The notes below the pieces were generated by a model. It ran no database searches. It was not told where the DNA came from and saw only the letters and a program-made list of their open reading frames with translations. Position numbers and translations under genes: made by a program. DNA of 35,303 bases from a virus. The stretch spans positions 1-35,303 of the IMG/VR virus record IMGVR_UViG_3300020182_002315; one strand, written 5' to 3'. Of this stretch, positions 9,059-35,303 are shown piece by piece (position 1 is the stretch's first letter; every line of letters starts with the position of its first letter).

Positions 9059-9066
9059 GTGTACTC

Positions 9067-9897
9067 CTAATTATATAATTGGTTTTTTAAGTTTACTACT
9101 TGTTCTTCTGAAAGGTCTCCAGGATCTCGTCCCTCAAGATTTATGTTTCGAGTATATAAACCTATCTCTTCCGCCATAGCTTTTACTTCTAAAGCTGCAG
9201 CTTGTCCTGGAGTATCTCCGTCAAAAAATATATCTACTCTTTGCACTCCTCGAAGTTTTAATATGCCTAATTTATCTTTTGATATATTTTTTGTGCCAAA
9301 ACAACATATAGCATTATTTAAACCTTTATCATGAAGATTCAGCATATCAAAGATACCCTCTACTAATAAGCAGGTACTCCGTATAGGATTAGCATCACTA
9401 GGATACAGAGGAAGCTTAGCCTTAGGCGGCGCAATATAATATTTTGGTATGCCATTTGTTGTGTGTCTTCCATTAAATGCTACTATTCTCCCAGTTAAAT
9501 CTCTTATAGGAAAAACTATTCTTCCTAAGTATTCTCTATCATGATGTTGAAATGCTTCAAATTTTTTGTATGTTTCTGGCTTTATTCCTCTCCAGTTCCC
9601 AGTATAGGACGTGTAAGAGAGGGGAAAAGATAGGCCAACGCTGTCTGCGCGCTTTTCGTTAATCTTATTTTTGAGTAGTTCACGTTTTAGCTGTAACTGA
9701 CTTACCTTTTCCCCATACAAACTAAAAACGTTTCCCTTGTATCCACAAGAAAAACAATTAAATATGCCCGTAGTTCTATCCACTCTCATAGATGGATTAC
9801 TATCGTCATGTTCGGGATTTAAACAACGTACAAGAAAGTCTTTTCCCTTAGCAAGATAATCTATTCCTTTAGATTGTAGTAGCTCTTGTACTGTCAT
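9067..9897 (-). CDS. DNA primase with CHC2 zinc finger and TOPRIM domain
   Basis: This 276-residue protein makes RNA primers for replication. The N-terminal zinc-binding set is C25, H30, C48 and C51 (CLNPEH, then CFSC). The TOPRIM domain has LLVEGIFDML and, later, the IFFDGDTPG acidic motif. At 276 residues it is much shorter than bacterial DnaG and has no helicase-binding domain, so it pairs with the separate DnaB-type helicase encoded at 10482-11858. The ATG overlaps the stop of the upstream small gene (ATGA), and the stop is 8 nt before polA. Confidence 0.94.
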   Translation of the reverse strand: MTVQELLQSKGIDYLAKGKDFLVRCLNPEHDDSNPSMRVDRTTGIFNCFSCGYKGNVFSLYGEKVSQLQLKRELLKNKINEKRADSVGLSFPLSYTSYTGNWRGIKPETYKKFEAFQHHDREYLGRIVFPIRDLTGRIVAFNGRHTTNGIPKYYIAPPKAKLPLYPSDANPIRSTCLLVEGIFDMLNLHDKGLNNAICCFGTKNISKDKLGILKLRGVQRVDIFFDGDTPGQAAALEVKAMAEEIGLYTRNINLEGRDPGDLSEEQVVNLKNQLYN

Positions 9898-12640: not shown

Positions 12641-13396
12641 TTATTCCTCTAAAAAACTTTTTAAGTTTTCAATTATTGTTATGCCAGATAGTCTGGCTTT
12701 TTCGGTTTTTGCAGTTTCTATACCACTTTCATTAACTAAATGTGTTACGTCTTTTGTAACACTAGTCTTTACTTCAAAGCCTGCGGCTTTTAAACAAGTT
12801 GTAGCATCTGCTTTTGTTTTAAAACTCTTCAGTTTTCCACTTATACATACAATTCCAGCCTGAGAGCTCTGCGGTGATTTATTAAACTTTAAGCTAAAAG
12901 GCAAAGAGCCCTCTAGCGTTGGGTAAAATACCTCATCTAACCATGTTGTTAGACTCTCAGTAGATTTTGGGCCAAGTCCTGCCTCAGTGCAGCTTTGCTC
13001 ATTGATTTCATATATAGTATCACATACTGAGCTTAGTTTTTCACTTGCGGTCTTACCAATTAGAGGGATACTGAACCCCGCTAAAACTGTATTCAATGGT
13101 GCATTTTTTGAGTTTTCTATCTCTGCAAATAATTTAGATCCTAGTTTATCGGAATCGAGTCCTACACATAATTCTTCTTCCGTGAAGCTGTAGATTTCGT
13201 CAACTCCTCTAATATCTAATCTTTTGATTGCTGCCGGGCCTAATCCTTTAATTTTTAAAGTTTTAGCAAAGTGTTCTACTTTCTTGCTCGATTGTGAAGC
13301 ACAATCAGAATTACGGCAATAGAGTAAAGGGCTGAGCCATTCAAGAATACTATTGCAGCTAGGGCAATGTTGTGGTCTTGTAATCTGGGTCAGCAA
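12641..13396 (-). CDS. ligB: NAD-dependent DNA ligase, C-terminal subunit (zinc finger, HhH, BRCT)
   Basis: This 251-residue protein matches the C-terminal half of bacterial LigA. A four-cysteine zinc finger (C11, C14, C27, C32) is followed by helix-hairpin-helix repeats (LKIKGLGPAAIKRL around 47-60 and later SIPLIGKTASEKL). A BRCT domain covers about 178-251 (GIVCISGKLKSFKTKAD). The nucleotidyltransferase part is encoded separately at 13480-14400, as in T5, whose ligase is also made of two subunits. The start is TTG, with GAGAG 8-12 nt upstream and no ATG nearby. It has its own promoter, P3, and is followed 3 nt later by the D5-like gene. Confidence 0.95.
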   Translation of the reverse strand: MLTQITRPQHCPSCNSILEWLSPLLYCRNSDCASQSSKKVEHFAKTLKIKGLGPAAIKRLDIRGVDEIYSFTEEELCVGLDSDKLGSKLFAEIENSKNAPLNTVLAGFSIPLIGKTASEKLSSVCDTIYEINEQSCTEAGLGPKSTESLTTWLDEVFYPTLEGSLPFSLKFNKSPQSSQAGIVCISGKLKSFKTKADATTCLKAAGFEVKTSVTKDVTHLVNESGIETAKTEKARLSGITIIENLKSFLEE

Positions 13397-13479: not shown

Positions 13480-14400
13480 TCATACACGCCTTAAAATACG
13501 AGGTATAATTTCGCCACTACGAATAACCTCTACATTACAGCCTATCTCTAATTCCAGAGCATTTATATATTCCATATTATGCAAGGTGGCCCTCGAAACA
13601 ACAGCGTCTCCAATTTTAATTGGATTTAGTATCGCTACAGGACTAACAACCCCTGATTTGCCTACCTGCCAAGTCACATCCAATAATGTAGTGACTATAC
13701 CTTTTTGCTGTTGTTTGAGAGCAAAAGCGCCTCTAGGATGATGTGAGGTGTAACCCGCATTATTAAATAGATAATTACTATCTAACCTAAAGACTTCTCC
13801 ATCAGTAGGGTACTCTGACACATTAAAAGTTGTTACAACATTAAAGCCTTGAGATTCAAGATAAGCTAACCCTTCAGTGAAGTAAGAAAACATATCTTGT
13901 TCAGACTGTAACCCGTAAGCAACAAATGTCAGAGGCCTACTTAGGAACTCGCTTTCGTCCTTGAGATTCAAGGAACCGGAAGCAAGATTTCTTGCGTTAG
14001 AGATATTTGAAGGACAAACAACTTCTCCAGTTACTTGAATAATATTCTTACTATCCAAAGTATTGGGAGCGAGGTGCTTAACCTTATCTGTAATATCTCT
14101 GCCCAACTTTCCGTCACCCCTTGTAAGTCCCAGAACAAGCTCACCACCAACGTATAGTAACGAGACAGCGGCTCCATCTAACTTTGGAGTACGGACGTAT
14201 TTTTCTAAGTCAGAATATACTGACAAATCAAATACTTTCTGTAAGGAGTACATTTGAAACCAGTGTGCAGTGCCGTCAGTTACCGTATGACCGACGTCAG
14301 TATTTCCATACTTTAACGATAGAATATCAAATTCAGCGTCCGAAATAATCGGATTGCCTGTATAGTAACACTCATTACATTGTGCAAGAAATTCTTTCAC
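13480..14400 (-). CDS. ligA: NAD-dependent DNA ligase, adenylation and OB-fold subunit
   Basis: This 306-residue protein is the catalytic half of an NAD-dependent ligase. A shortened domain Ia keeps the NMN-contact motif (YYTGNPIISDAEFD). The adenylated lysine is K73 in PKLDG, followed by LTRGDGKLGRD and TGEVV. The TWQVGKSGVVSPVA segment and an OB-like end (EVIRSGEIIPRIL) complete the expected order. The chain stops where a normal LigA continues into the zinc finger. Together with LigB it totals 557 residues, against about 670 in bacteria. The start is GTG, with GAGAG upstream, fed by promoter P4. Confidence 0.95.
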   Translation of the reverse strand: MKEFLAQCNECYYTGNPIISDAEFDILSLKYGNTDVGHTVTDGTAHWFQMYSLQKVFDLSVYSDLEKYVRTPKLDGAAVSLLYVGGELVLGLTRGDGKLGRDITDKVKHLAPNTLDSKNIIQVTGEVVCPSNISNARNLASGSLNLKDESEFLSRPLTFVAYGLQSEQDMFSYFTEGLAYLESQGFNVVTTFNVSEYPTDGEVFRLDSNYLFNNAGYTSHHPRGAFALKQQQKGIVTTLLDVTWQVGKSGVVSPVAILNPIKIGDAVVSRATLHNMEYINALELEIGCNVEVIRSGEIIPRILRRV

Positions 14401-24144: not shown

Positions 24145-24321
24145 ATGAAAAATTACAGAAAAAAGCCTTGGAGTTATAAAGAAAGAATGCTTTTACGTGA
24201 TCATTATTATTTTGTGGGAGGGGAAGAGATGCAAAACATTCTACCAGGTAGAACACATAACTCTATAGTTAAGCAAGTTGCCTACTTAAAAGCAAGAGGC
24301 TGGTGGTTTAAAAAACCATGA
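24145..24321 (+). CDS. Small SANT/Myb-like DNA-binding protein (58 aa)
   Basis: This 58-residue basic protein has one Myb/SANT-like tri-helix pattern: KPWSYKERMLLRDHYYFVGG, then EEMQNILPGRTHNSIVKQ with the typical LPGRT-x2-S turn. W, L and aromatic residues are spaced as in the three-helix core. It is expected to bind DNA and may control its own divergent promoter region. The start is the ATG at 24145, because a longer GTG-started frame from 24088 would include the promoter itself. The ATG coincides with the predicted transcription start. The stop overlaps the next ATG (ATGA). Confidence 0.78.
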   Translation: MKNYRKKPWSYKERMLLRDHYYFVGGEEMQNILPGRTHNSIVKQVAYLKARGWWFKKP

Positions 24322-24962
24322 TAAGCGCAAAAGTTAATACAGCAGCAGGGTACGTTACAGGAAGAATTGATCCTTCGTTACTTACAATGCTTCAAGCAGA
24401 AGCAGTAAAAATGGAGAAAACAAACTTTAAAGGCTTAGACAAGTACCAGAAGTATTTAGCGGGACACTTAAAGCACGAATACTCTCTTGAACATCCTTCT
24501 TTAGTAGCTGAAATTAATAAGCAGATTGTTGAGTGTGTCGAGCTTTATGATGAAACTTTCGGTTCAGGTTTAGTTGAACAGGAAATGAAAAGAGGGAGCA
24601 ACAAAACAGGAATAGATTATGAGATTGATATGGGTCCAATATGGATTAACTTTATGCAAAAGTATGAATTTAATCCTTCTCATACTCATTCAGGGCTTTT
24701 TTCTTATGTAATTTGGATTAAAGTGCCTTACAGTCTAGAAGAAGAAGCTAAACTTTGGGATACTCCAAATAAGTATGCAGGATGTTTTGCGTTTCAGCAT
24801 TTGGATTGTATTGGCAGGTTTGTTACAGATATACAAGAAAGTGAGGAGGGTGGAATGGTGTTTTTTCCGGCTAATTTAACTCACACTGTTTTTCCTTTCT
24901 ACACCTCTGACGAGTTTAGGGTGAGTGTGTCTGGAAATGTATTTTTAAAGGAAATTGCATGA
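24318..24962 (+). CDS. 2OG-Fe(II) oxygenase, phage TIGR02466-like
   Basis: This 214-residue protein matches a family of putative 2-oxoglutarate and iron dependent oxygenases common in cyanophages and other marine phages. Iron ligands are visible as HTH (H122, H124 in NPSHTHSGLFSYVIWIK), and a distal histidine lies in FFPANLTHTVFPF (H189), with R201 in DEFRVSVSGNV to bind 2-oxoglutarate. Substrate is unknown; members may hydroxylate proteins or small molecules. ATGA overlaps join it to both neighbours, so it is co-translated with the SANT-like protein and the 49-aa protein. Confidence 0.85.
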   Translation: MISAKVNTAAGYVTGRIDPSLLTMLQAEAVKMEKTNFKGLDKYQKYLAGHLKHEYSLEHPSLVAEINKQIVECVELYDETFGSGLVEQEMKRGSNKTGIDYEIDMGPIWINFMQKYEFNPSHTHSGLFSYVIWIKVPYSLEEEAKLWDTPNKYAGCFAFQHLDCIGRFVTDIQESEEGGMVFFPANLTHTVFPFYTSDEFRVSVSGNVFLKEIA

Positions 24963-25108
24963 AAATTAAAGAAATTTTAATGTATGTCGAAGGATTATAT
25001 TATTCTTCTTTTTCAGAAGAAGATATAGCTAAAATGGGAAGTCGAGAATTTAATGTATCAGAAGATTACATCAAACAAGTTTATAACGACTTCAAGAAAT
25101 ATAAGTAG
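24959..25108 (+). CDS. Small hypothetical protein (49 aa)
   Basis: This 49-residue acidic, helical protein (FSEEDIAKMGSREFNVSEDY) may hold a short HTH-like or helical-hairpin fold. No family is recognised. The ATG overlaps the stop of the oxygenase (ATGA) and the next ATG is 4 nt after its stop, which supports it as a true gene in this coupled operon. Confidence 0.73.
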   Translation: MKIKEILMYVEGLYYSSFSEEDIAKMGSREFNVSEDYIKQVYNDFKKYK

Positions 25109-25111
25109 TTT

Positions 25112-25297
25112 ATGGAAATAAAAGTTAAAAATGGGAATGTTGAAAAAGCAATCCGTAGTTTAAAAAGAAAAACCCTGGATAAGCTGTTTGAAGTACGTGA
25201 AAGACAGTATTATCTTAAACCATCAGTAGCTAGACAAAATAATAAAAAGGCTGCTAGAATAAGAGAGCAAAGGAGGATTCGTGCTCAAAAGCAATAA
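25112..25297 (+). CDS. rpsU: Ribosomal protein bS21 homologue
   Basis: This 61-residue basic protein matches bacterial ribosomal protein S21: a short beta start (MEIKVKNGNVEKAIRSLKRK), then the family core VRERQYYLKPSVARQNNKKA, comparable to VRRREFYEKPTTERKR in E. coli. A lysine/arginine-rich helix follows (RIREQRRIRAQ). S21 sits on the 30S platform next to the anti-Shine-Dalgarno end of 16S rRNA. Phage-encoded S21 proteins are known from marine phages and may replace the host protein to favour phage mRNA. The end overlaps the next gene by 17 nt and supplies its AGGAGG. Confidence 0.9.
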   Translation: MEIKVKNGNVEKAIRSLKRKTLDKLFEVRERQYYLKPSVARQNNKKAARIREQRRIRAQKQ

Positions 25298-26318
25298 GCG
25301 TATTTTAATCACGGGTGGAGCAGGCTTTATCGCCCACCATGTAGTAGAGAAAATTTTAATAGAAACAGATTGGGATATTGTAACACTTGACAGACTAGAT
25401 TTCAGTGGAAATCTGAATAGGCTTGCAGAGGTAGTATCAAACACTGCAGGCCATCTGGGAAGGGTAAAAGTTGTTCATCATGATCTGAAAGCTCCTTTAA
25501 ATCCCCAAATTGCTTCCGCCATTGGAGAAGTTGACTATATTGCTCACATGGCTGCAGGCTCTCATGTAGATAGATCTATTGATTATCCCATGGAGTTTGT
25601 ACTTGACAATGTTGTAGGAACTGTAAACTTGTTAGACTATGCAAGAACTGTAAAAAGTCATAAAAGACCTCCTTTGTTTGTCTACTTTTCCACAGATGAA
25701 GTGTTTGGGCCCGCCCCTGATGACGTGAAGTATAAAGAAAATGATAGGTATAACTCTACTAATCCTTATTCTGCTAGTAAGGCAGGAGGGGAAGAATTTG
25801 TAGTTGCGTATCAAAATACTTATGGTCTTCCTGCTATAATTACACATACTATGAATGTATTTGGAGAGCGTCAGCATCCAGAAAAGTTTATTCCAATGTG
25901 TATTAAACGGGTACGGGACGAAGAAGTAATTACAGTACATAGTAATAAAGAGAAAACTAAGGCTGGATCAAGACATTATATACATGCTGCTGATGTAGCG
26001 GATGCTTTATTATTTTTATTAAACACTGATCTTTCTAAAGCTCCTACTGAGTATAATGAAACAAAGTGTAAAAAATTTAATATAGTAGGTGCAGAAGAGC
26101 TAGATAATTTAGAGTTAGCTCAAATTATTGCAAATACGATAGGTAAAGAATGTAAATATGAAATGGTAGATTTTCACTCTCAAAGACCCGGACATGATCT
26201 TCGTTATGCTCTTGATGGAGATAAGCTAAGAACGATGGGATGGGAGCCTAAACCGATTCGAGATAGATTGGATCAAGTAATTAATTGGAGTTTGGAGAAC
26301 TCAAGATGGTTGATGTAA
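25281..26318 (+). CDS. NAD-dependent sugar dehydratase/epimerase, RmlB-like
   Basis: This 345-residue extended short-chain dehydrogenase probably acts on a nucleotide sugar, most like dTDP-glucose 4,6-dehydratase. The NAD-binding motif is TGGAGFIAHH (residues 11-20). The dehydratase-type TDE triad is T138-D139-E140 in YFSTDEVFG, and the catalytic YxxxK is Y163/K167 in NPYSASKAGGE. The C-terminal GxxRPGHDLRY-like segment reads HSQRPGHDLRYALD, as in RmlB. The start is GTG with AGGAGG 5 nt upstream, inside the bS21 gene. It should feed sugars to the glycosyltransferases on the opposite strand, though no matching sugar nucleotidyltransferase of RmlA type is in the window. Confidence 0.93.
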   Translation: MLKSNKRILITGGAGFIAHHVVEKILIETDWDIVTLDRLDFSGNLNRLAEVVSNTAGHLGRVKVVHHDLKAPLNPQIASAIGEVDYIAHMAAGSHVDRSIDYPMEFVLDNVVGTVNLLDYARTVKSHKRPPLFVYFSTDEVFGPAPDDVKYKENDRYNSTNPYSASKAGGEEFVVAYQNTYGLPAIITHTMNVFGERQHPEKFIPMCIKRVRDEEVITVHSNKEKTKAGSRHYIHAADVADALLFLLNTDLSKAPTEYNETKCKKFNIVGAEELDNLELAQIIANTIGKECKYEMVDFHSQRPGHDLRYALDGDKLRTMGWEPKPIRDRLDQVINWSLENSRWLM

Positions 26319-26704
26319 TGTTAAGTGGAACTAACTTTGAACTAGTTGGTGATTTTATGGAGGCTTTTGGACAGGAGGTACGTTTAGAACCTAGCTGGCC
26401 AGACTTCTCAACTAGAGAACTAAGAGTGGATTTAATCGAAGAAGAACTGGAAGAGCTAAAAATAGCTATTGCTAATAAAGACCAAGTGGAGGTAGCAGAT
26501 GCGCTTACTGACTTATTATATGTTATTTACGGAGCAGGTCACGCCTTTGGTCTTGATCTTGATGCTTGCTTTACAGAAGTTCATGCAAGTAATATGAGTA
26601 AACTCGATGAGAACGGAGTCCCTATTTACCGTGAAGATGGAAAAGTACTTAAAGGGCCTAACTTTTTTGCCCCTGACTTAAGGAAAGCTCTGTGGCTGGA
26701 TTAG
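26306..26704 (+). CDS. MazG/PRA-PH-like nucleotide pyrophosphohydrolase
   Basis: This 132-residue all-helical protein has the metal-binding signature EEELEELKIAI (about 38-48) and, later, VEVADALTDLLYV (EVxDAxxD), as in MazG and phosphoribosyl-ATP pyrophosphohydrolases. A C-terminal extension (SKLDENGVPIYREDGKVLKG) is the type seen in the HisE-like phage group. The start is the ATG at 26306 with GGAG about 10 nt upstream; a TTG at 26285 is less likely. It overlaps the sugar dehydratase gene end by 13 nt. It may clean a modified or unwanted nucleotide pool. Confidence 0.85.
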   Translation: MVDVMLSGTNFELVGDFMEAFGQEVRLEPSWPDFSTRELRVDLIEEELEELKIAIANKDQVEVADALTDLLYVIYGAGHAFGLDLDACFTEVHASNMSKLDENGVPIYREDGKVLKGPNFFAPDLRKALWLD

Positions 26705-27852
26705 AAGCTTATGTGGTTGGATATGGATCAATAGATACTCTTGGAAATAATCCTTGGTCCAGTTTCCAAAAAACTTTAGATAATGTAGACTATAAGACAT
26801 GGTTTGATGATCTTGGCCTCATGGCTTATCCTGTTGACGATGATACTATAGTATACCCTAGCGGATGGAAGCCCCGAAACAACAGTCGTGCGCAGAAATT
26901 TTTCATGCACGCAACCAATCTTGCCTTGGAGCACTCAACCCTTCCCATTGTTCCTAATGTTGCTGTTATTCTTTCTTCTACTCTTTCTGAAGGCGAACTC
27001 AATGAGGAAAACTTTCCAAAAAGAGCTGCAGGAAAAAGAATTCCTCTCCGAAGTCTTGTAAATACTATTACTGATATGTGCACCTATCATGTGTGTAATC
27101 ACTGGGGATTTCATGGGTTATCCACTTCTGTGGCTGCTGCTTGTGCTACTGGATTAGTAGGAATTGATTATGCCATGCGCATCTTGCACAAATATGACTA
27201 TGTAATAGTCGGAGGTGCTGACGCGGGTATTTATAAAACTACTCTGGAAGGCTTTGATAGTATAGGAGCGCTGTCTTCGGATAATAGTCCTTTCGATGAT
27301 AATAGATCAGGTTTTGTAATGGGAGAGGGCGCTGGAGTTGTAATACTTCAAAGTAAGGAGAATGTAGATAAATTTAATAGCAAACCTGTTGCTAAATTAT
27401 ATGAGCCGGGTCATGCTACCGAAGGATTAAGTTTAACAAGCCCAGCAGAGGACGGCAGAGGAGCTACTCAAGCAATGAGGCAAGCTTTAGAAAACTCTCC
27501 TGTAAGTATGGTAGATAGTATTTGTTGTCATGCAACCTCTACCTCTATAGGGGATATAACGGAGTATAAAGCAATAGATAGGGTACATTCTAATAATCCT
27601 ATTCTATGGGCTCCCAAAAGTAAACTAGGGCATACTGTGGCCGCATCTGGGATACTCGAAACTATTCATCTTTTTGAAGCGTTTAGAGCCCGTATGATTC
27701 CTCATATACAAAACTTAGATAAATGTTCTTTTGATAAAAGAAATCTTCTTGCATATAGCAATCGAGGTATTGGATCTGACAACAACTGGGCTATGAATAA
27801 TTCTTTTGGTTTTGGAGGTAAGAATATGTCTCAAGTAATAGAACTATATTAG
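26692..27852 (+). CDS. Beta-ketoacyl-ACP synthase (KAS II/FabF-like)
   Basis: This 386-residue thiolase-fold enzyme condenses acyl units with malonyl-ACP. The active cysteine is C151 in SVAAACATGLVGID. The two active histidines are H280 in CHATSTSIGD and H314 in PKSKLGHTVAASG, with K309 just before. The NSFGFGGKN loop closes the chain. Thus the Cys-His-His set is complete. The length is about 25 residues shorter than FabF. The start is GTG, with AAGGAA upstream, overlapping the MazG end by 13 nt. It is the last gene of the plus-strand operon. No acyl carrier protein, ketoreductase or thioesterase is seen, so it must use host partners. Ketosynthases are uncommon in phage genomes. Confidence 0.93.
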   Translation: MAGLEAYVVGYGSIDTLGNNPWSSFQKTLDNVDYKTWFDDLGLMAYPVDDDTIVYPSGWKPRNNSRAQKFFMHATNLALEHSTLPIVPNVAVILSSTLSEGELNEENFPKRAAGKRIPLRSLVNTITDMCTYHVCNHWGFHGLSTSVAAACATGLVGIDYAMRILHKYDYVIVGGADAGIYKTTLEGFDSIGALSSDNSPFDDNRSGFVMGEGAGVVILQSKENVDKFNSKPVAKLYEPGHATEGLSLTSPAEDGRGATQAMRQALENSPVSMVDSICCHATSTSIGDITEYKAIDRVHSNNPILWAPKSKLGHTVAASGILETIHLFEAFRARMIPHIQNLDKCSFDKRNLLAYSNRGIGSDNNWAMNNSFGFGGKNMSQVIELY

Positions 27853-29124
27853 CAACTCTCCAGGAAACCTCTCTCCGTCAGGATCTTTCAAAGCAACTAA
27901 AGCAACTCGAGTTGCTATAATATTATCTCCCCAGTCATAGTTAGCAGTATCATAGTGCTGAAATCTTACTGGAGAAGGAGGGAGAAACCGAGCTTTATCT
28001 TCTCGATAATAATACCAAAAAGAATTTGAATTCCAATAACTTACGTGTGTAGGGTCTTGGAAAGCCCCTCTACCATCTGTACTCGGTACTTCTACTAACA
28101 GCCATCCTCCGTGAGCGAGAACTCTCCAACATTCTTCTATAATCTTTTGCTTATCATATAAATGCTCAAGAATGTGCCAAGCTCTAATAACTCCTACTGA
28201 GTTGTCTGGAAGAGGTATACCATCATTTAGATCGTGTTTAATATCACCGTGCCGAAGATCTATATTAGTAAACCCAGGCCAGGTACTACTTTCTCCTCCA
28301 CCTAACTCGATAGCTGCGAGGTTTCTTTTTCCAGCCTCTACTAGAGCAAGGTTTGTAACATTATTTCTAAACTTATCTATGCAAGCAACTTGTATATGCT
28401 CATTTCTTATTGTAAGAGAATTGTTACTGCCTGTTACTCTATAGTAGTATAAAGCTTTTGGGATATGCCTCATTTCTGTACCACTAAGATAAGTTCTTAT
28501 TATTAGATCAAGATCGTCACAAGACCAATCTTCAGGATTATACCCTCCCACACTATCATATACGGTTTTTCTCCAACTTCGAACGTGATCAGGAGCCCAC
28601 CAAATCTGACCTACAGATTTAGATGATACAGGAAAAGAATGAGTAACAACTCCAGTGTGTCCCGGAGTGTCATGCCATTCTTCATAATGATGAGTCCATC
28701 CCATACGTTCCTGAAATGGATGAAACACCTGACCAGGTTCAGGCATATACAAACAATCTGTGTATATAAAACCTACTTGAGGCTCTGTACTATATACATT
28801 AAATAGTTCTTGTAAACAGTCTGGATGAAGCTTATCATCGTGGTCAACTTCTGTAATTATATCCCCTGTCGCGAGAGAAGCTGCCGCATTTTTTATATCT
28901 CCAATGCTCTTTTCATTAAGATAGACGCGCTCATGTTCTCTAATCTCGTCAGACCAAAGTACTCTTTCGTCTTCGCAAAACTTTATGTCGTCAACGGTTA
29001 CACCGTTACAATAAACTACCCACTCCCAATTTTTGTATGTTTGAGCAACGAGACTATCGTATAACTCTCTTAGAAAGGGAAGGTTTTCTTTTGTATGTTC
29101 GGGGGTTATTACACTAAATTTCAT
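27844..29124 (-). CDS. Glycosyltransferase family 2 fused to class I methyltransferase
   Basis: This protein of 426 residues has two enzymes. The N-terminal 250 residues form a GT-A glycosyltransferase: SVITPEHTKENLPFLREL, YKNWEWVVYCNG, and the metal motif DHDD (TEVDHDDKL), with a later WSCDDLDLIIR. The C-terminal 160 residues form a SAM-binding methyltransferase with AAIELGGG, FTNIDLRHGDIKHDL, and AWHILEHL followed by HGGWLLVEVPS. It could transfer and then methylate a sugar. The start is put at ATG 29124, 4 nt after the previous stop (a TTG at 29136 is possible). The 3' end overlaps the convergent ketosynthase gene by 9 nt. Confidence 0.9.
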   Translation of the reverse strand: MKFSVITPEHTKENLPFLRELYDSLVAQTYKNWEWVVYCNGVTVDDIKFCEDERVLWSDEIREHERVYLNEKSIGDIKNAAASLATGDIITEVDHDDKLHPDCLQELFNVYSTEPQVGFIYTDCLYMPEPGQVFHPFQERMGWTHHYEEWHDTPGHTGVVTHSFPVSSKSVGQIWWAPDHVRSWRKTVYDSVGGYNPEDWSCDDLDLIIRTYLSGTEMRHIPKALYYYRVTGSNNSLTIRNEHIQVACIDKFRNNVTNLALVEAGKRNLAAIELGGGESSTWPGFTNIDLRHGDIKHDLNDGIPLPDNSVGVIRAWHILEHLYDKQKIIEECWRVLAHGGWLLVEVPSTDGRGAFQDPTHVSYWNSNSFWYYYREDKARFLPPSPVRFQHYDTANYDWGDNIIATRVALVALKDPDGERFPGELLI

Positions 29125-29128
29125 ATTA

Positions 29129-30772
29129 TTACTCAAAGAAAAATAAATGGACTAAACGTCCGGTTTCATCGGTATTGCCAAAGTAAGGCCCTGCAGAGTG
29201 AATACTTTGACCGTCAAAGATTATACATCTATTATATATATTTCCTACACTACTGATTACAGGAAAATTAGTCGAATCGAAATAGCCTGTAGGAAAAGCC
29301 TCGTCTATTCTTTCGTCTCTCTTCGTTAAAGCAGAGGTGGTATTAGAAGCATGGAGTCTTGTTCCTGACTCTAAAGGAGCGTCGGGGGTAAGAAAAACAA
29401 CTGCAGCCCACTTTTGGTCATCATGGTGATAGACTTGAGGATCCTCGGAAGTAGTAATTTGAAATAACCCCGAAGCACCTACATCTATATTATTTATTTT
29501 TGTGTTTAAAGCTTTTTCAAATCTTTCTTTTATTCCAGGAGGAAAGTACTTTGTTTTTGATCTCTTTCCTTTATACCAAGCAGAGTCTCCACTATACTCA
29601 AGAGAGAGGGCATATTCTCGTACACTGTCAGGTTTTTGATAAAAATTTTCAATAACTACTGTGCGAGTATCTCCGGCTAAGTTCATTCCAAGATCTGTAC
29701 TCTCTTCTAATATGTTATAAATCTCTACTACTCTATGCCCAGAATCATAGTCACTTGAATCAAGAAATACTTCATAGTGATCTGGAAAGGCAATACGAGA
29801 GGGAATTAGGCTATACCAAAGAGTTCTTGCTTTTGTGAGATTTCCTATTTGTGCAAGCATTCTTACACATCTAATTAGCCACTCAGATCTGTCTGAGCAC
29901 CACTGGTTTGCGTTAAGGTAATAAGTTTCTGCTTTCTCAAACTCTGAAGACTCCCACAAAAGATCCCCGAGAAACACATTAGCCCAATAGTGAAGTTCTA
30001 TAAAGTTCCAGCCTTCTTCGTTTGCCGTCTTTAACCAATTTAAAAAAGTTTCTATAGCTCTTTTTCTGTACTCTTCTCTAGTCTCATTTAATGGAAAGTG
30101 TCCGTTTAAAGCATCATAATAAGATTTTCCAAGATACCAAAAATGATACATGTTCTCTCTATATCCATCCTCCATTAGACGTTGTTCTAATTTAAGGGAA
30201 TCAAGTATGTACTTTCGAGGGTTGGAATAGGTTTGCCCATCAGTAAAAGATTCGTGACGAAACTCTCTTGGAAGACGAACTCTTGAAAACCCTTCAGGGT
30301 CTTCTCTTCCTTCAACATAGACTGTTTCATGAGCAGGATCGTTATAGAAAGCCCAACGATTTTTAGTGTTCCACAACCAGCATCTTTGATAACTAAGAGT
30401 TCCTTGAACACAAGTAACATTCCAAGCATCCGTGTCTACTGTATGAAAGATATCCCAATTAAATTCTGGATCTACTACCAAAGTTTCATCGGAATCCATT
30501 TTAAGAATGTAGTCACAATTATGATCAGAATCCTGAAAGCGTTGAATTAGATGATTTCGATTCCAACCAAAACCCTTCCATCCTTCTTCACAATCATATA
30601 CGAAACCTTCCAAGTTATTTTCACTTAAAAAGTTTCTTGCAATCTCTCCAGATCCGTCTGTGCTTCCATTATCTTGAAGAACATAGTAGTTCCCATGACC
30701 AAGAGTAGACTCTAACATTCGAGACAGTACGTGTGCTTCGTTCGCAAACATACTTATAATTCCAAGTCTCAT
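29129..30772 (-). CDS. Three-part protein: GT2 glycosyltransferase, TPR-like region, DUF6445-type 2OG oxygenase
   Basis: This 547-residue protein joins three parts. Residues 1-210 resemble a GT2 glycosyltransferase: GIISMFANEAHVLSRML, QDNGSTDGSGEIA and the metal motif KMDSDETL. About 210-345 are helical repeats with TPR-like spacing (YLGKSYYDALNGHFP and FEKAETYYLNANQW). Residues 350-547 look like a DUF6445-type oxygenase: VYHHDDQKWAAVVFL with H and D ligands, and RCIIFDGQSIHSAGPYFG and RLVHLFFFE with the distal H and R. A glycan made by the first part may be oxidised by the last. ATGA overlap links it to the previous gene. Confidence 0.87.
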   Translation of the reverse strand: MRLGIISMFANEAHVLSRMLESTLGHGNYYVLQDNGSTDGSGEIARNFLSENNLEGFVYDCEEGWKGFGWNRNHLIQRFQDSDHNCDYILKMDSDETLVVDPEFNWDIFHTVDTDAWNVTCVQGTLSYQRCWLWNTKNRWAFYNDPAHETVYVEGREDPEGFSRVRLPREFRHESFTDGQTYSNPRKYILDSLKLEQRLMEDGYRENMYHFWYLGKSYYDALNGHFPLNETREEYRKRAIETFLNWLKTANEEGWNFIELHYWANVFLGDLLWESSEFEKAETYYLNANQWCSDRSEWLIRCVRMLAQIGNLTKARTLWYSLIPSRIAFPDHYEVFLDSSDYDSGHRVVEIYNILEESTDLGMNLAGDTRTVVIENFYQKPDSVREYALSLEYSGDSAWYKGKRSKTKYFPPGIKERFEKALNTKINNIDVGASGLFQITTSEDPQVYHHDDQKWAAVVFLTPDAPLESGTRLHASNTTSALTKRDERIDEAFPTGYFDSTNFPVISSVGNIYNRCIIFDGQSIHSAGPYFGNTDETGRLVHLFFFE

Positions 30773-31458
30773 GAATACCTTTCCATAATTTGATTCTCCT
30801 TTCCAGATACCGGAGCGAACTTGGCGCGCTTTCTACTTGGATCAGCCGAATTGCTCGGAGGAGCTAGATAATATAAAGCTATACTATTTCGCTGATGACC
30901 CTCTGGACAAGTAATTGGGTCATTAAATCCATGCCAAGAACTATTGGTGGAGGTATCAAAGAGTACGGCTCTATTGAATAAACAATCTACTGAGACTGCT
31001 TTTTTAGAAGGAGCAGTTTCATCTCCTTCCCAGAACTCCAAAGCTCCTCCCCACTCAGGCTTCCAACCCTCTGACAAGTAAACTATAAGATTATACTTTC
31101 TTTCCATACCGTTTTCAGGATGAAGGCTATAGTCGAGATGCACATTTAATTTTCCTCCTCTACTATGTGTGTGAAGCCCTCCGCCATAAAGAGATGTATC
31201 CGGTACTAACTCTAGTTCTCCGGTAGTCATCATCAACCAGTTCATAAACTCATTACCCATTAAATGGTTAAACACTTCTTTATATACAGAAGGAAAGGTA
31301 TTAAGATCTTTATTTGCAAACTTTTCTTCGAAATAGTTTGAGTAATGGTGCCACTTGTCTGATAAGGGTAAAAATTCTTCTGATAACCTTTTTGCTCTTT
31401 TCGGAGAGAAAAAGTCATCAATGACCCAATGTTTAAATGGATGTACGCTGAAGTTCAT
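30769..31458 (-). CDS. 2OG-Fe(II) oxygenase (prolyl 4-hydroxylase type)
   Basis: This 229-residue protein has the double-stranded beta-helix ligands of iron and 2-oxoglutarate dependent dioxygenases: HxD at H107/D109 (LNVHLDYSLHP), a distal H176 (SSWHGFND) and R190 (HQRNSIALYYL). Lengths and spacing match the P4H/PF13640 type, which acts on protein, sugar or small molecules. It is one of three likely oxygenases in the window. It overlaps both neighbours by 4 nt (ATGA), so it is produced along with the glycosyltransferases. Confidence 0.92.
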   Translation of the reverse strand: MNFSVHPFKHWVIDDFFSPKRAKRLSEEFLPLSDKWHHYSNYFEEKFANKDLNTFPSVYKEVFNHLMGNEFMNWLMMTTGELELVPDTSLYGGGLHTHSRGGKLNVHLDYSLHPENGMERKYNLIVYLSEGWKPEWGGALEFWEGDETAPSKKAVSVDCLFNRAVLFDTSTNSSWHGFNDPITCPEGHQRNSIALYYLAPPSNSADPSRKRAKFAPVSGKENQIMERYS

Positions 31459-32420
31459 AATACCTCTATTCCGCCTTTGAAGCCGTCTAAGTGTAATAGT
31501 TCATCTTCAGTCCAGTACCAAGGATGAATGTTCCTAAATAATATATTCCCAATTTTTACTTCAGTATTATCCTTAACCCTTTTCATCTCTTCTTCTGTTA
31601 TATCTCTGAATGGAAGGTAAAGCCAATGAATATCTTTATTTTTGAAAAGTGCTTCTAAGTCTTGTCCAACTTGTATTGGCTCTATATGTATATAAGAAGG
31701 TTCTGGTTTTCCCCAGTCTGATGTGTAAACGCCTAAGGATGTAAACATATATGAGCCGAAGTTCTTTCCCTTACCTTTTTGTGCTACCCATAATTCTTGA
31801 CAGGTTTTCTCCTCTGGACCCAGAGTAATTCCGTGTTTAGTAGTAACCCCTCCTCGCGAGGTCATGCTTTCATAAGATAATTTTTTTATATGATCGCTAT
31901 TTGCCCACCAAAAGTTTCCGTGATAGAAAGGCATTTCTTTTTCTACGTAGGTTGTCTTATCCTTATAATGATACGCTGTAATAAAGTTTCTTGAATAAAG
32001 CGGCCCACAATGATCGTATTCAAGAAGAGCGTCTAAACACTCTTCTCGATTGAGCACTGTTTTTGACTCTAGGTAGCGTCTCCAAAGAACAGTATTTTCA
32101 AATACTCCAGGCTCTCTTAAGTGGGCAGTCACCCCCTTACTATGTATATAAAGAATTGGTATGTTAAAAGACAGTTTATCACAAAAAGCTTTTAAAAACC
32201 TCAGAGTTTGTGCTTCGTGCACAGGGTATTCCCTGTACTTTTTAAGAACTACATTAGGAGGAACAAAAGGAAATTCTTCTTGTCCTGTATAGCAAAGAAA
32301 GGTGCATAAAGCTTGATCTAATAAACCACTTTGTTTGAAAACTTCCATTTGCTCACTATAAATAGCCTTCCAGTTAGGGCCAATTTGAGCAAGATGATAA
32401 AATACTACAAATTCGCGCAT
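31455..32420 (-). CDS. Glycosyltransferase-like protein of uncertain family
   Basis: This 321-residue protein has features of a glycan-acting enzyme: IYSEQMEVFKQSGLLD, an ILYIHSKGVT segment, LWRRYLES and FYHGNFWWANSDHI. I recall these patterns from glycosyltransferase-like proteins of algae, bacteria and large viruses. No clear DxD motif or catalytic set is seen. The position between an oxygenase and a 140-aa gene in the glycan operon fits. It overlaps the start of the oxygenase (4 nt) and the end of the upstream gene (16 nt). It may instead be a non-catalytic partner. Confidence 0.7.
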   Translation of the reverse strand: MREFVVFYHLAQIGPNWKAIYSEQMEVFKQSGLLDQALCTFLCYTGQEEFPFVPPNVVLKKYREYPVHEAQTLRFLKAFCDKLSFNIPILYIHSKGVTAHLREPGVFENTVLWRRYLESKTVLNREECLDALLEYDHCGPLYSRNFITAYHYKDKTTYVEKEMPFYHGNFWWANSDHIKKLSYESMTSRGGVTTKHGITLGPEEKTCQELWVAQKGKGKNFGSYMFTSLGVYTSDWGKPEPSYIHIEPIQVGQDLEALFKNKDIHWLYLPFRDITEEEMKRVKDNTEVKIGNILFRNIHPWYWTEDELLHLDGFKGGIEVL

Positions 32421-32827
32421 TTAAACTCTCCGTCCTCCAAAAATACTATTTTATACGCTCCCTCGAAAACAGGACAAGTTCTTCCGCCAGATACATAATC
32501 TCCATTGGGTAATTCTACTTTATCGTTTCGAGCAGTAGAGTACCTCCATCTTTCTTCTTCTTTAATTAAAATAAAAGCATGCTCCTCTATTTTGTCCATA
32601 GGAGCTACTTCTAGTCGAAGACTTTCGTCTTCATACTCTAAGAGAGCTACCCCATGATAGCTCTCTCCATAATAAATATCCCAAACAGTTTCTTCAGCAC
32701 CAAACGCAGTAGAACAAATGTACTTTACTTTTTCTCCTGTCCACTGAGTCACATAGTTATGTCCGTGTTCTTCAGGAATAGTTGGAGTATGAAAAATATT
32801 AATAAAAGACTTGATAGTCTCGCTCAT
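32405..32827 (-). CDS. Hypothetical protein (140 aa)
   Basis: This 140-residue protein has no recognised family. It is beta-rich, with many acidic and aromatic residues (FGAEETVWDIYYGESYHG), and lacks membrane segments. It overlaps the sulfotransferase gene by 29 nt and the next gene by 16 nt. The ATG is preceded by AGGAAAAG. Its place in the operon suggests an accessory protein of the glycan pathway, but the sequence does not show it. Confidence 0.72.
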   Translation of the reverse strand: MSETIKSFINIFHTPTIPEEHGHNYVTQWTGEKVKYICSTAFGAEETVWDIYYGESYHGVALLEYEDESLRLEVAPMDKIEEHAFILIKEEERWRYSTARNDKVELPNGDYVSGGRTCPVFEGAYKIVFLEDGEFKCANL

Positions 32828-33380
32828 ATCTTTTCCTTATTTCTTCCTCTTCCTTACTTTTTAAAATTACTCTTATATTTTTTGACTTCTGCTCATGAGG
32901 TAACTTTATTTTTTTATTAAATACTTCTGAGAGTCTACTTTCCATCTTCTCCCACTCTTCAAACCGAAACACTTCATCCACTCTACACTTGTCTTTTATG
33001 TAAAGGTAGTCATATTGAGACTGTGTTCGGTAGCTTTGTTCATTCAATAAAGACTCGGGCGTTTTCTGTCTAAACCTACACTCGCTCTTAAATCGTTCAA
33101 CAGGATCTCTTACTATCGAAAAAGTATAAGCAGAGGCTGCAAAGGTATGGAGAATACCCACTTTGGCAACATCCCAGTGATGCAAAGGAACCGCATGGCC
33201 TGTTCGCCCAATAAAATATTTTTTCTGGTGCTCTAAATAGAGACGTACATGCCCTCCGTTTTCGGTCGGACCTACAGGTATTCCATCATCACGCAAACCC
33301 CAGAACTCTACTGAGGTTCCTCCGGTTTTCGGAATGTGTATAAAAAAGGTTTTATACTTCGGAAAGTACAAGAAGCTCAT
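32799..33380 (-). CDS. Sulfotransferase (PAPS-dependent)
   Basis: This 193-residue protein should move sulfate from PAPS to a hydroxyl, most likely of a glycan. The 5'-phosphosulfate loop is FIHIPKTGGTS (K18), and the 3'-phosphate site is FSIVRDPVERFKSE (R91, S99). These are the two defining motifs of Golgi-type and bacterial carbohydrate sulfotransferases. At 193 residues it is compact. The ATG lies 28 nt inside the MazZ-like gene end, with GGAGG immediately before it, so translation is coupled. PAPS must come from the host, since no sulfurylase or APS kinase is in the window. Confidence 0.9.
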   Translation of the reverse strand: MSFLYFPKYKTFFIHIPKTGGTSVEFWGLRDDGIPVGPTENGGHVRLYLEHQKKYFIGRTGHAVPLHHWDVAKVGILHTFAASAYTFSIVRDPVERFKSECRFRQKTPESLLNEQSYRTQSQYDYLYIKDKCRVDEVFRFEEWEKMESRLSEVFNKKIKLPHEQKSKNIRVILKSKEEEEIRKRYERDYQVFY

Positions 33381-33651
33381 CCTCCAACTTAAACATCAAG
33401 CAGCACATTGCATGAGCTAAGTGTGAGAGGCCTGTTTCTTCATCTACTTTTTCTCCTGCCATATGAGCAAGAAGATGCCTCATTGCTGCTGAAGTGTAGC
33501 GCTCTTGAAGATTTTCTAGCTTTCTCCAGTTATGTGCATCGTATTTTTGAGCCCCATAAGTCAACACCTTTCCTACTTCGAGAGTTGCAAGAGGTGGAAG
33601 AAGGTACATCTCAGGTTTTGCGGAATCAAACTTTAAACCGATATTCGACAT
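33352..33651 (-). CDS. dATP/dGTP diphosphohydrolase, MazZ/DUF5664-like
   Basis: This 99-residue protein matches the DUF5664 (MazZ-related) family. GLKFDSAKPEMYLLPP is the typical N-terminus, and EVGKVLTYGAQKYDAHNWRK and YTSAAMRHLLAHMAGE follow. Metal-binding acids come last (DEETGLSHLAHAMCCLMF). MazZ hydrolyses dGTP and dATP to monophosphates in phages with 2-aminoadenine DNA, but related proteins occur in many phages with normal DNA, and no PurZ is seen here. It is the first gene of the glycan operon, driven by promoter P9. Confidence 0.88.
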   Translation of the reverse strand: MSNIGLKFDSAKPEMYLLPPLATLEVGKVLTYGAQKYDAHNWRKLENLQERYTSAAMRHLLAHMAGEKVDEETGLSHLAHAMCCLMFKLEDELLVLSEV

Positions 33652-34219: not shown

Positions 34220-34828
34220 TCATAGATACCCCGCTGCCGCCCGTGATAAGAACTCGGGCATTGATATCTCTCTATTTGGATCTATAGATACAGTAAAAGG
34301 GGTTGTTACTCTCCAGAGTTTATCATAATACTTTTCTAACTGCTCCCCAAACCTCTTGGCTGTCTCTATTCTTACGGCTTTTCTAGTCACATCGTAAAAT
34401 TTTGTACCTGCATACATGTTTTCTATTTGAGAAGGTCTCTCCAGTAGATTGTCTCCTGGATTATATAAATCAAATCCAAGTAGATATGGTAGGTATCCTT
34501 TTTCTAAAGCGTAAAGAACTGCTCTGGTCCCCGTACAAACAATCCCGCGTCTATTATTTGGTCCTCGATGAATTGTATCAGCATCAAAAATTTCTATTCT
34601 CTCATCTCGAAGTTCTGTACCTCCAGGCCTTACTACAATTCTTCCAGGATAGTTACTCTCTACGATCTCTTTGGTCATGCCCAGGTCCGTGCAGAATAGT
34701 CTATCAAACTTTAAGTCTTCGTAGGCTCGATTGCACCCGTAGAGCTTGTAGCCCTTTCGTTTATATAGACGAATATTAATATCTTTTCTAGATATTCCGT
34801 TTCCTACTATTATAACTGGTGTTTGCAC
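34220..34828 (-). CDS. GT42/DUF115-like protein, first of a tandem pair
   Basis: This 202-residue protein starts MQTPVIIVGNGISRKDIN, followed by LYGCNRAYEDLKFDRLFCTD. The pattern is similar to that of GT42 sialyltransferases, such as Cst-II (VIIAGNGPSLKEID and FRCNQFYFE). Further motifs are GIVCTGTRAVLYALEKG and YLLGFDLYN with NMYAGTKFYD. The start is GTG, with GAGGAG 5 nt upstream, overlapping the end of the upstream gene. The upstream gene is a relative with the same core. A glycosyltransferase role is a guess from the N-terminal pattern; the histidine base of GT42 is not identified. Confidence 0.75.
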   Translation of the reverse strand: MQTPVIIVGNGISRKDINIRLYKRKGYKLYGCNRAYEDLKFDRLFCTDLGMTKEIVESNYPGRIVVRPGGTELRDERIEIFDADTIHRGPNNRRGIVCTGTRAVLYALEKGYLPYLLGFDLYNPGDNLLERPSQIENMYAGTKFYDVTRKAVRIETAKRFGEQLEKYYDKLWRVTTPFTVSIDPNREISMPEFLSRAAAGYL

Positions 34829-35303
34829 ATAAACTCCTCAATGCTCATCTCGTTCCAGTTAGGAACCCTTACTACGTCTTTGTTTACTACTCGAATAAAC
34901 TTATCTTTAAATTGTTCAATCTGGAGTATAAAGTCAGCTCCAGTTCTTTTATATACTGCTCTTTCGTAGAAGGGTTGACCTGCATACATATGACCGGCGT
35001 TAGCGGGTGTTGCGTTCTTTCTTCCAGCCATATTAAAAAAGTCAAAGCCAAGAAGGTATATTGCATCCCACTCTTTTTTTCGTTCTAAAGGATCTACATG
35101 AACAGCATAAGTTACTGCTCTAGCTCCGCTACTGTAGGATCCTTTCTTTAGTTTTTCTATAACTTGCTCAGGATAAAAAGGTCTCCAATTGTCTAGAAGA
35201 TTCATATTCTCTAGCTCTTTAGCAGTAAAACGACGAAATGTGTCATACCTGTATATAACAGTTCCTTTATAATTGTTTTGTAGTATCTCACGGGTTATAG
35301 GAA
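34810..35303 (-). CDS. GT42/DUF115-like protein, second of a tandem pair (5' end outside window)
   Basis: The frame is open from the window edge, 32 codons upstream of the ATG at 35205, and that extra part (ITREILQNNYKGTVIYRYD) aligns with ITREI-type residues of the neighbour (MTKEIVESNYPGRIVVR). So the gene begins beyond the window. The visible 164 residues share ARAVTYAV, YLLGFDFFN and HMYAGQPFYE with the neighbour, which indicates duplication. A loop between these motifs is longer here. Two lysine/arginine-rich stretches near the end are not shared. Function as for the neighbour is inferred. Confidence 0.75.
   Translation of the reverse strand, partial: PITREILQNNYKGTVIYRYDTFRRFTAKELENMNLLDNWRPFYPEQVIEKLKKGSYSSGARAVTYAVHVDPLERKKEWDAIYLLGFDFFNMAGRKNATPANAGHMYAGQPFYERAVYKRTGADFILQIEQFKDKFIRVVNKDVVRVPNWNEMSIEEFMCKHQL

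Follow-up and report, generated by a model that had tools for sequence, protein, structure and literature searches.

Mimivirus is described as hydroxylating and glucosylating its own collagens (PMC9546862), and hydroxylation or glycosylation of collagen-like proteins is described for some bacteria as well (PMC8968730). Islands of glycosyltransferase (GT) genes in phages have been taken to modify lipopolysaccharide (LPS) or capsule (PMC7029224, PMC7824862, PMC2984593), cyanophage proteins with prolyl-hydroxylase domains have been tentatively tied to repair (PMC2984593), EGLN3-like oxygenases are widespread in phages of marine bacteria (PMC12774648) and a variable island of freshwater actinophages holds fibre and collagen-like genes (PMC10202952). 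A survey of titles and abstract openings in the open-access literature, subscription papers and preprints lying outside its range, contained no paper on the hydroxylation and glycosylation of phage fibres. Here, we describe a block of genes at positions 24145-33651 of the IMG/VR virus record IMGVR_UViG_3300020182_002315, in which such a system may be encoded; the whole 35,303-base record is referred to as the window. The block consists of two converging operons, whose last genes, G4 (+) and G5 (-), end at 27852 and 27844, respectively. The plus operon runs G1, a short open reading frame (ORF), the gene for ribosomal protein S21, G2, G3 and G4, and the minus operon runs G11, G10, G9, G8, G7, G6 and G5. 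We place at slightly better than even, roughly 0.52, the probability that G6 and G5, together with G7 and G8, form a machine that modifies the tail-fibre proteins of the phage itself, most likely collagen-like fibres of Gly-X-Y repeats, with the RmlB-like product of G2 and the G10 sulfotransferase contributing.

The case begins with G6 (29129..30772, minus strand), a fusion of a SunS-like GT2-tetratricopeptide repeat (TPR) part with a 2-oxoglutarate (2OG) oxygenase of the OGFOD1-like/DUF6445 kind (PF00535 1.6e-7, PF20043 6.7e-6, phrog_1644 2.5e-29). In the predicted model (pLDDT 87.6, pTM 0.62), the GT2-TPR half superposes on the glycocin S-glycosyltransferases SunS and ThuS with Z-scores of 22.9, 22.4 and 21.7 and a root-mean-square deviation of 2.6-3.4, over 273-287 residues lying within the first 307 to 360 of the protein; the next structural group is a fucosyltransferase, at a Z of about 16. 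Its C-terminal domain model matches OGFOD1, a prolyl hydroxylase, with a Z of 14.5 over 163 residues. A Foldseek search also gives the TPR-oxygenase AspH and the LH3 chain of the LH3/ColGalT1 complex, with low TM-scores, and the G6 profile matches TPR proteins as well as the solved chain of GmaR (1.5e-6, over the GT2 part). The DxD motif is kept in all 42 alignment rows, as are the oxygenase residues H449, D451 and H525, and R539 is present in 41 of 42, the remaining row having a gap. Immediately upstream lies G7 (30769..31458, minus strand; PF13640 2.8e-15), a prolyl-hydroxylase-like 2OG-Fe(II) oxygenase whose profile matches OGFOD1 (5.6e-10), a HIF prolyl hydroxylase (6.3e-5) and a bacterial prolyl 4-hydroxylase (P4H; 1.1e-4), and in which H107, D109, H176 and R190 (HxD...H, R) are found in five of five rows.

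These predicted folds and profile matches speak for the hydroxylation and glycosylation of proteins and against the oxidation of sugars. Because both G7 and the C-terminal domain of G6 resemble protein prolyl-hydroxylases, hydroxylation of protein residues is the likelier activity, and the oxidised sugar that had been proposed as the product is not supported. The combination of 2OG oxygenases with GTs also occurs in DNA base modification, where oxygenases would hydroxylate bases and GTs glycosylate them. This explanation is highly improbable here, as the three oxygenases of the block match PF13759, PF20043 and PF13640/PF13661, Pfam gives them no match of the TET/JBP type at E up to 0.1, and the GT domain of G6 is predicted to be of the peptide-GT type.

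The two remaining members of the proposed machine flank this pair. G5 (27844..29136, minus strand) is a fusion of a GT2 glycosyltransferase with an S-adenosylmethionine (SAM) methyltransferase (PF00535 1.2e-9, PF08241 4.2e-8), in which the DHDD motif and two glycines of the SAM loop are kept in three of three rows. G8 (31455..32420, minus strand) has no family match above cut-off and is assigned from its predicted model (pLDDT 71, pTM 0.68, C-terminus poorly modelled) to the GT-A fold, with VIA Z values of 10.7-12.9 against GT-A enzymes over residues of about 1-245, among the 50 matches listed. Several GT-A families tie in this search, among them residues 295-512 of LH3 (Z about 12), which we take to be its accessory GT-like domain. 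No conserved DxD was present in G8, in that no pair of columns i and i+2 holds Asp in at least half of the 33 rows, and H93 and G96 are kept in all 33; G8 may possibly be an inactive or a non-DxD GT. A resemblance of G8 to an 'MGP protein' encoded beside a DUF6445 gene in S-SCSM2R was considered and dropped, the comparison giving no real similarity.

In the mechanism that we propose, G7 and the C-terminal domain of G6 would hydroxylate side chains using 2OG and O2, and the SunS-like GT2-TPR part of G6 would place the first sugar on the protein while its TPR holds the chain. Whether fused or separate, the G8 subunit would help in this step or itself add a sugar; G5 would extend the glycan with its GT2 domain and methylate it with its methyltransferase domain. 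RmlB (G2) would supply an NDP-4-keto-6-deoxy sugar and, in the window's lineage, G10 would sulfate the product. The observations behind this scheme are the gene content, fold classes, retained catalytic motifs, conservation, gene fusions and the association with collagen-like genes; the modified residue, the order of these steps and the identity of the sugar are what we infer.

The block recurs beyond the window. Two contigs of the window's own population (L002 and L003/L004) encode block proteins that are 100% identical, and a sister phage, represented by contigs of 41.5 kb (L131/G001) and 19.5 kb (L198/G002), contains the whole block. Protein identities to the sister are 92% for G11, 52% for G10, 61-65% for G9, 32% for G8, 70% for G7, 48% for G6, 47% for G5, 61% for G4, 83% for G3, 84% for G2 and about 37-38% for G1. 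Ratios of non-synonymous to synonymous divergence (dN/dS) between the window and L198 range over 13 genes from 0.04 (S21) to 0.52 (G1, the least constrained), with 0.25 for G4, 0.18 for G5, 0.26 for G6, 0.11 for G7, 0.33 for G8 and 0.17 for G9; these values are rough because dS is high for several genes. The recurrence of the whole block in the sister, together with this range of dN/dS, argues that it is more than a chance assembly. A nucleotide search of the block against the phage collection gave no match.

At the protein level, G5 and G6 travel together much more widely. Profile scans among pattern matches in IMG/VR yielded 149 relatives of G5 and 83 of G6, of which the best 80 each were used. 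The 153 loci with G5, some of them overlapping on one contig, include 115 with the GT part of G6 within 6 kb, and these group at 80% G5 identity into 37 clusters of phage contigs. In 25 of these clusters, G6 comes before G5. G7-like genes are nearby in 20 clusters and G8-like genes in 16; 10 clusters have the two at a single locus, and 26 have at least one of them. G5 and G6 thus constitute a constant pair, with G7 and G8 as frequent partners. Of the 45 loci with G8, 32 (in 8/37 clusters) encode it in a single frame with the GT part of G6, a fusion also present in the sister phage (807 aa). A pattern scan of the genomes of 84,980 bacterial and archaeal species gave no convincing G6 homologue, its one hit being a weak similarity to GT2 (29% over 98 aa); since the scan rests on two short peptide patterns, distant cellular relatives may be missed.

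The substrate is suggested by what lies near these genes. At L006, the cassette is preceded by three ORFs rich in Gly-X-Y repeats, one matching PF01391 (2e-49) and ending in a Peptidase_S74 domain and another matching tail-fibre PHROGs. Of the 27 G5+G6 clusters that have at least one flank of at least 5 kb, 14 have a collagen-like ORF no more than 10 kb away (16/37 when all clusters are counted). Under the same rules, such an ORF is found in none of the 14 clusters formed by 39 control loci with a G6-like oxygenase domain only (Fisher p 0.0011). Among 25 records with a G5 homologue, hand-chosen, mostly as the longest, and including related records, PF01391 is present in 21; outside the window's own lineage, it occurs in 14 of 14 records with both G5 and G6 and in seven of eight with G5 and no GT part of G6. 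The corresponding controls are 0/18 long oxygenase-only records and 0/16 records from 80 RmlB loci, and among kin found through PhoH it is present in two of nine records (nine of 26 kin).

Several observations weigh against fibres as the substrate. The window contains no Gly-X-Y run, and its nearest kin (G001-G003, all fragments) have no PF01391 match; as neither it nor their contigs carry a collagen gene, the substrate is one that we infer. No collagen ORF lies within 10 kb in 13 of the 27 clusters with sufficient flank. In 18 long records, the distance between cassette and collagen is modestly below random (mean fraction 0.314, Fisher p 0.055). Record G013 lacks collagen despite having a G5 gene, and cyanophage S-CRM01 (G016) has a lone G5 homologue among replication genes, 51 kb from the nearest collagen ORF. 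In DSL-LC02, an oxygenase domain lacking the GT2 part has a collagen-like gene, tail-fibre genes and a GT as its neighbours, so the pairing of oxygenase and collagen need not include G6. Finally, the controls come from other phage groups, and some of the association could be due to common descent.

The clusters without a nearby collagen gene, and the absence of one near the block itself, also speak for remodelling of the host surface, in which the GTs, RmlB and the sulfotransferase would alter host LPS or capsule during infection and so exclude other phages. RmlB is a classical O-antigen enzyme, and the ketosynthase encoded by G4 could serve changes in lipid. Surface modification is, moreover, the published reading of phage GT clusters (PMC7029224, PMC7824862, PMC2984593). 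Ranged against it are the protein-type hydroxylases, one of them fused to a SunS-like peptide glycosyltransferase, the co-occurrence with collagen-like genes, the lack, for all ten block proteins, of any Pfam or PHROG match to a flippase or polyprenyl-phosphate transferase family (membrane segments were not predicted) and the outcome of the cellular scan for G6. We regard host-surface remodelling as unlikely, although it stays a rival to be reckoned with; of the two targets named in the original prediction, virion proteins or the host surface, the former is the better supported.

A further line of argument for fibres comes from their composition. In all 27 G5-bearing loci with collagen, a set that includes one contig twice (L081/L134) and some members of which show no GT part of G6, Gln is the first or second most frequent residue at Y (19-97%), and Lys at Y does not exceed 1% in 24, the exceptions reaching 3%, 9% and 13%. 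In the collagen-like ORFs of L006, L098, L126, L184 and L192, Gln makes up 54-97% of Y, and some of these ORFs are almost free of proline. By comparison, Lys occupies 26-46% of Y in five loci that carry both repeats and a full enzyme resembling human lysyl hydroxylase (LH) LH3.

This second type of enzyme occurs in phages related to the window. The window DNA polymerase is nearest to those of Aeromonas and Vibrio phages (44-45% identity), which we take to be T5-like. A 32-kb T5-like kin record (G047), whose PhoH and polymerase are 76% and 77% identical to those of the window, encodes a 629-aa GT25-GT_PLOD-2OG protein (L409:1010-2899; PF01755 8.7e-23, PF25342 1.6e-49 and, below cut-off, PF13640 2.7e-5). 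Its relatives in the PDB are human LH3 (1e-36, over GT and hydroxylase parts), mimivirus R699 (3e-27), procollagen galactosyltransferase 1 (COLGALT1, 3e-15) and the lysyl hydroxylase/glycosyltransferase chain 6ax6 (1e-6). The gene adjoins a Lys-rich Gly-X-Y frame of 296 codons, near the contig end and without a clear start, and is followed by a second 2OG gene and then by ORFs that include a virion structural protein (phrog_1645). Three ORFs near this enzyme, as well as ORFs at the end of the sister contig G001, have no PHROG match, and L409:3482-4132 has neither a Pfam nor a PHROG match. Homologues of the 629-aa protein are present in 12 records of the phage collection, namely nine from Synechococcus phages (including S-PRM1, S-CAM9 and S-8S53/55/56), one from a single-cell marine virus, one from Roseobacter phage CRP-6 and one with a partial match. 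In the four annotated regions examined, the homologue is labelled as a hypothetical protein and invariably adjoins tail genes, and the upstream fibre frame contains Gly-X-Lys repeats (4/4 in each case); it lies directly downstream of the tail genes in CRP-6, whereas in S-CAM9, S-PRM1 and S-8S56 it comes after genes for tail fibres or fibre-like proteins and two further 2OG genes.

A Lys-rich fibre accompanies the full GT25-GT_PLOD-LH enzyme in five of six loci, three of them from Kyanoviridae, the sixth being an 8.4-kb contig (L415) in which no Gly-X-Y run was found; seven of the 12 phage-collection records fall outside this count. Two loci depart from the match between GT_PLOD and Lys. The first, G011, has GT_PLOD in a 229-aa frame and 1% Lys at Y. 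The second, G048, has 0%; next to a frame of more than 2,580 codons, which codes for a tail-fibre-J-like protein with a collagen stretch, it encodes a GT2-GT_PLOD fusion without the LH domain, a protein of the Capsule_synth family and an FkbM methyltransferase. Enzyme type may thus track the fibre residue, and such tracking argues for the fibre as substrate. More tentatively, tailed phages may possess two non-homologous systems of collagen maturation, an LH3/COLGALT-like one associated with Gly-X-Lys and a GT2-TPR-2OG/GT2-methyltransferase one associated with Gly-X-Gln; because some of the fibres are almost proline-free, Gln or Thr are conceivable sites of hydroxylation and glycosylation in the latter. 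This extended proposal is doubtful at present; were it true, hydroxylation and glycosylation of Gln or Thr would constitute a new collagen modification.

Traces of the LH3-like system extend to the window's closest relatives. The sister G001 (L219:8865-9383) and G046 (L416:3987-4544) have a free-standing gene for an LH3-like hydroxylase between SbcD and SbcC, which matches LH3 at 1.3e-7 and the G047 domain at 46% identity and is lacking from the window, where tblastn with the sister's LH-like protein gave no match at 1e-3. Nor does the GT_PLOD domain (PF25342) figure among the Pfam matches of G1-G10, listed to an E of 0.1, or in G001-G003. An ORF near the left end of G001 is 54% identical over 191 residues to a G047 ORF that adjoins the virion structural protein and is separated by about 8.5 kb from the collagen repeats. 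Were this gene order conserved, the window's lineage would have its fibre genes just outside its contigs.

Around the proposed machine, the block includes genes with a less certain relation to it. G2 (25281..26318, plus strand; PF16363 1.2e-48, phrog_540 7.7e-103) is an RmlB-like NDP-sugar 4,6-dehydratase whose best PDB matches are dTDP-glucose 4,6-dehydratases (4e-50); its STDEVFG and YSASK segments align to PDB RmlB, in which STDE and YxxxK are presumably the catalytic motifs. Its score of 239.9 bits lies below the TIGR01181 equivalog cut-off of NCBIfam (365.1). G10 (32799..33380, minus strand) is a sulfotransferase that passes the Pfam gathering score (PF03567 4.6e-6, 27.4 bits against 22; phrog_3347 2.3e-9) and retains, in window and sister alike, the motifs KTGGTS and VRDPVERF (RDPVER), which we take to mark the PAPS site. 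A search with G10 gave no match in the phage collection and none in the PDB and, among the loci compared, its homologues are confined to the window's own lineage. At L191, a PF13469 sulfotransferase of another kind, a PF13759 oxygenase and an APS-kinase/KTI12-like gene (731-1567, 1551-2105 and 8422-9273) lie near a cassette, on a contig that also carries a tail sheath gene.

G4 (26692..27852, plus strand; PF00109 1e-23, PF02801 1.6e-19) is a FabF-like beta-ketoacyl synthase, below the NCBIfam equivalog cut-off (TIGR03150 1.1e-56, 192.2 bits against 493.75). The Cys-His-His triad and Lys (C151, H280, K309 and H314) are kept in the window and the sister, from which the ketosynthase looks to be maintained. 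One motif reads HATST in the window and the usual HGTST in the sister. Relatives of G4 in the phage collection number 29 records, most of which, judged by names and lengths, look like bacterial contamination; one prophage and one environmental phage look genuine. Pattern scans, which distant relatives may escape, found G4 homologues only in the window's own lineage in IMG/VR and no relative in the genomes; nor was G4 found in other cassette phages. A search for an acyl carrier protein in the window record found none, and any part assigned to G4, a FabF-like condensing enzyme, would be conjectural. Nod-factor synthesis uses the same classes of enzyme, and the block might accordingly be thought to produce a lipo-oligosaccharide signal, with the ketosynthase building the acyl chain alongside the GT2, methyl- and sulfotransferase activities. 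The kept catalytic residues of G4 are in its favour; the missing carrier protein, the absence of N-acyltransferase and deacetylase families among the ten proteins in Pfam and the lack of a ketosynthase match in other cassette phages make it the faintest of the explanations considered.

The plus operon begins with G1 (24318..24962; PF13759 3.3e-9, phrog_81 2.9e-22), a 2OG-Fe(II) oxygenase of the PF13759/TIGR02466 kind, followed by a 61-aa homologue of ribosomal protein bS21 (25112..25297; PF01165 1.6e-8), the 3' end of whose gene overlaps the start of G2 on the same strand. G3 (26285..26704; PF01503 1.3e-20, phrog_671 9e-41) is a MazG/PRA-PH nucleotide pyrophosphohydrolase. The minus operon opens with G11 (33352..33651; PF18909 3.4e-33, phrog_801), which resembles the N-domain of dATP/dGTP diphosphohydrolases, and includes G9 (32405..32827), a 140-aa protein with no Pfam or PHROG match. 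S21 and MazG are common phage genes. With S21 and G3 in the plus operon and G11 at the head of the minus operon, the block is not purely a glycan locus, and these three are probably outside the modification machinery. It could be that the operons are two unrelated modules, the minus operon modifying fibres and the plus operon serving host takeover or metabolism, unconnected with glycans. Besides S21 and MazG, this finds support in pelagimyophages, for which S21 is reported as core and fabF in a freshwater group (PMC7029224), and in the 79 RmlB loci outside the window's population, none of which carries G5 or G6 and five of which carry a G7-like gene; RmlB alone is therefore no marker of the cassette. 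However, in L005-L009 the RmlB gene comes immediately after the G5 homologue and in the same orientation, the L006/L007 gene being 63-65% identical to G2, and the sister keeps the whole block. A complete separation of the two operons is thus rather improbable.

The original prediction had placed in this interval a sugar dehydratase, two GT2 fusions, another GT-like protein, a sulfotransferase, three probable oxygenases, a methyltransferase domain and a ketosynthase, in two facing operons, and all are present there. Its view of the block as a glycan-modification system holds for a modification module, the S21, MazG/PRA-PH and dATP/dGTP diphosphohydrolase-like genes having gone unmentioned. A single pathway drawing on all ten genes is not borne out, as homologues of the ketosynthase and G10 occurred only in the window's own lineage among the scans and loci compared. 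The refuting condition that it named, a lack of joint conservation, does not hold for G5 and G6, which recur together in other phages.

The left part of the window is annotated with replication genes, comprising SbcC/SbcD, helicases, PhoH, DNA polymerase, primase, a D5-like regulator, a split NAD-dependent ligase and ThyX. The ligase is encoded by two genes on the minus strand, at 12641-13396 (phrog_3498) and 13480-14400 (phrog_3359). Beyond the block, two adjacent minus-strand genes of unknown function lie at 34220-34828 and 34810-35301, one matching phrog_30607, with L198 homologues at 68% and 48% identity.

If the proposed fibre modification is correct, it would give a role to phage GTs and prolyl-hydroxylase-like oxygenases that are now read as LPS enzymes (PMC7029224, PMC7824862), as well as to proteins now annotated as minor coat proteins or hypothetical. 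Hydroxylation and glycosylation of the collagen type would then reach tailed phages, beyond animals and a giant virus, and the modification could bear on fibre stability, host range and protease resistance.

Compared with described systems, the block shares with human LH3/PLOD3 and COLGALT1 the use, proposed in the case of the block, of 2OG hydroxylase and GT-A domains on Gly-X-Y chains, a hydroxylase-GT fusion and the predicted match of G8 to LH3 residues 295-512 (Z about 12). It differs in having neither GT_PLOD in the block nor an LH-like hydroxylase in the window, in the SunS-like GT2 and TPR of G6 and in the near absence of Lys at Y from cassette-linked collagens. SunS and ThuS resemble the GT2 and helical part of G6 in predicted fold; SunS acts on a bacteriocin peptide and, to our knowledge, has no fused oxygenase. 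GmaR, the O-GlcNAc transferase of Listeria flagellin that the G6 profile matches over its GT2 part, glycosylates a filament protein, and we know of no oxygenase domain in it. The GT islands of pelagimyophages and cyanophages are alike in placing GTs near tail fibres, fabF, S21 and 2OG genes, and differ in being read as LPS modification, with no GT2-TPR-2OG fusion in the text consulted from that source (PMC7029224). BclA and the P4H of B. anthracis offer a glycosylated bacterial collagen-like protein and a P4H acting on collagen peptides (PMC8968730), BclA being a cellular spore protein and not a virion fibre. Mimivirus L230/R699 provides the parallel of a virus with collagen-like proteins and its own hydroxylase/glycosyltransferase (PMC9546862); it is a giant virus of amoebae with PLOD-type enzymes, whereas the cassette belongs to tailed phages and employs other GT and 2OG families, although PLOD-type enzymes do occur in kin phages of the window.

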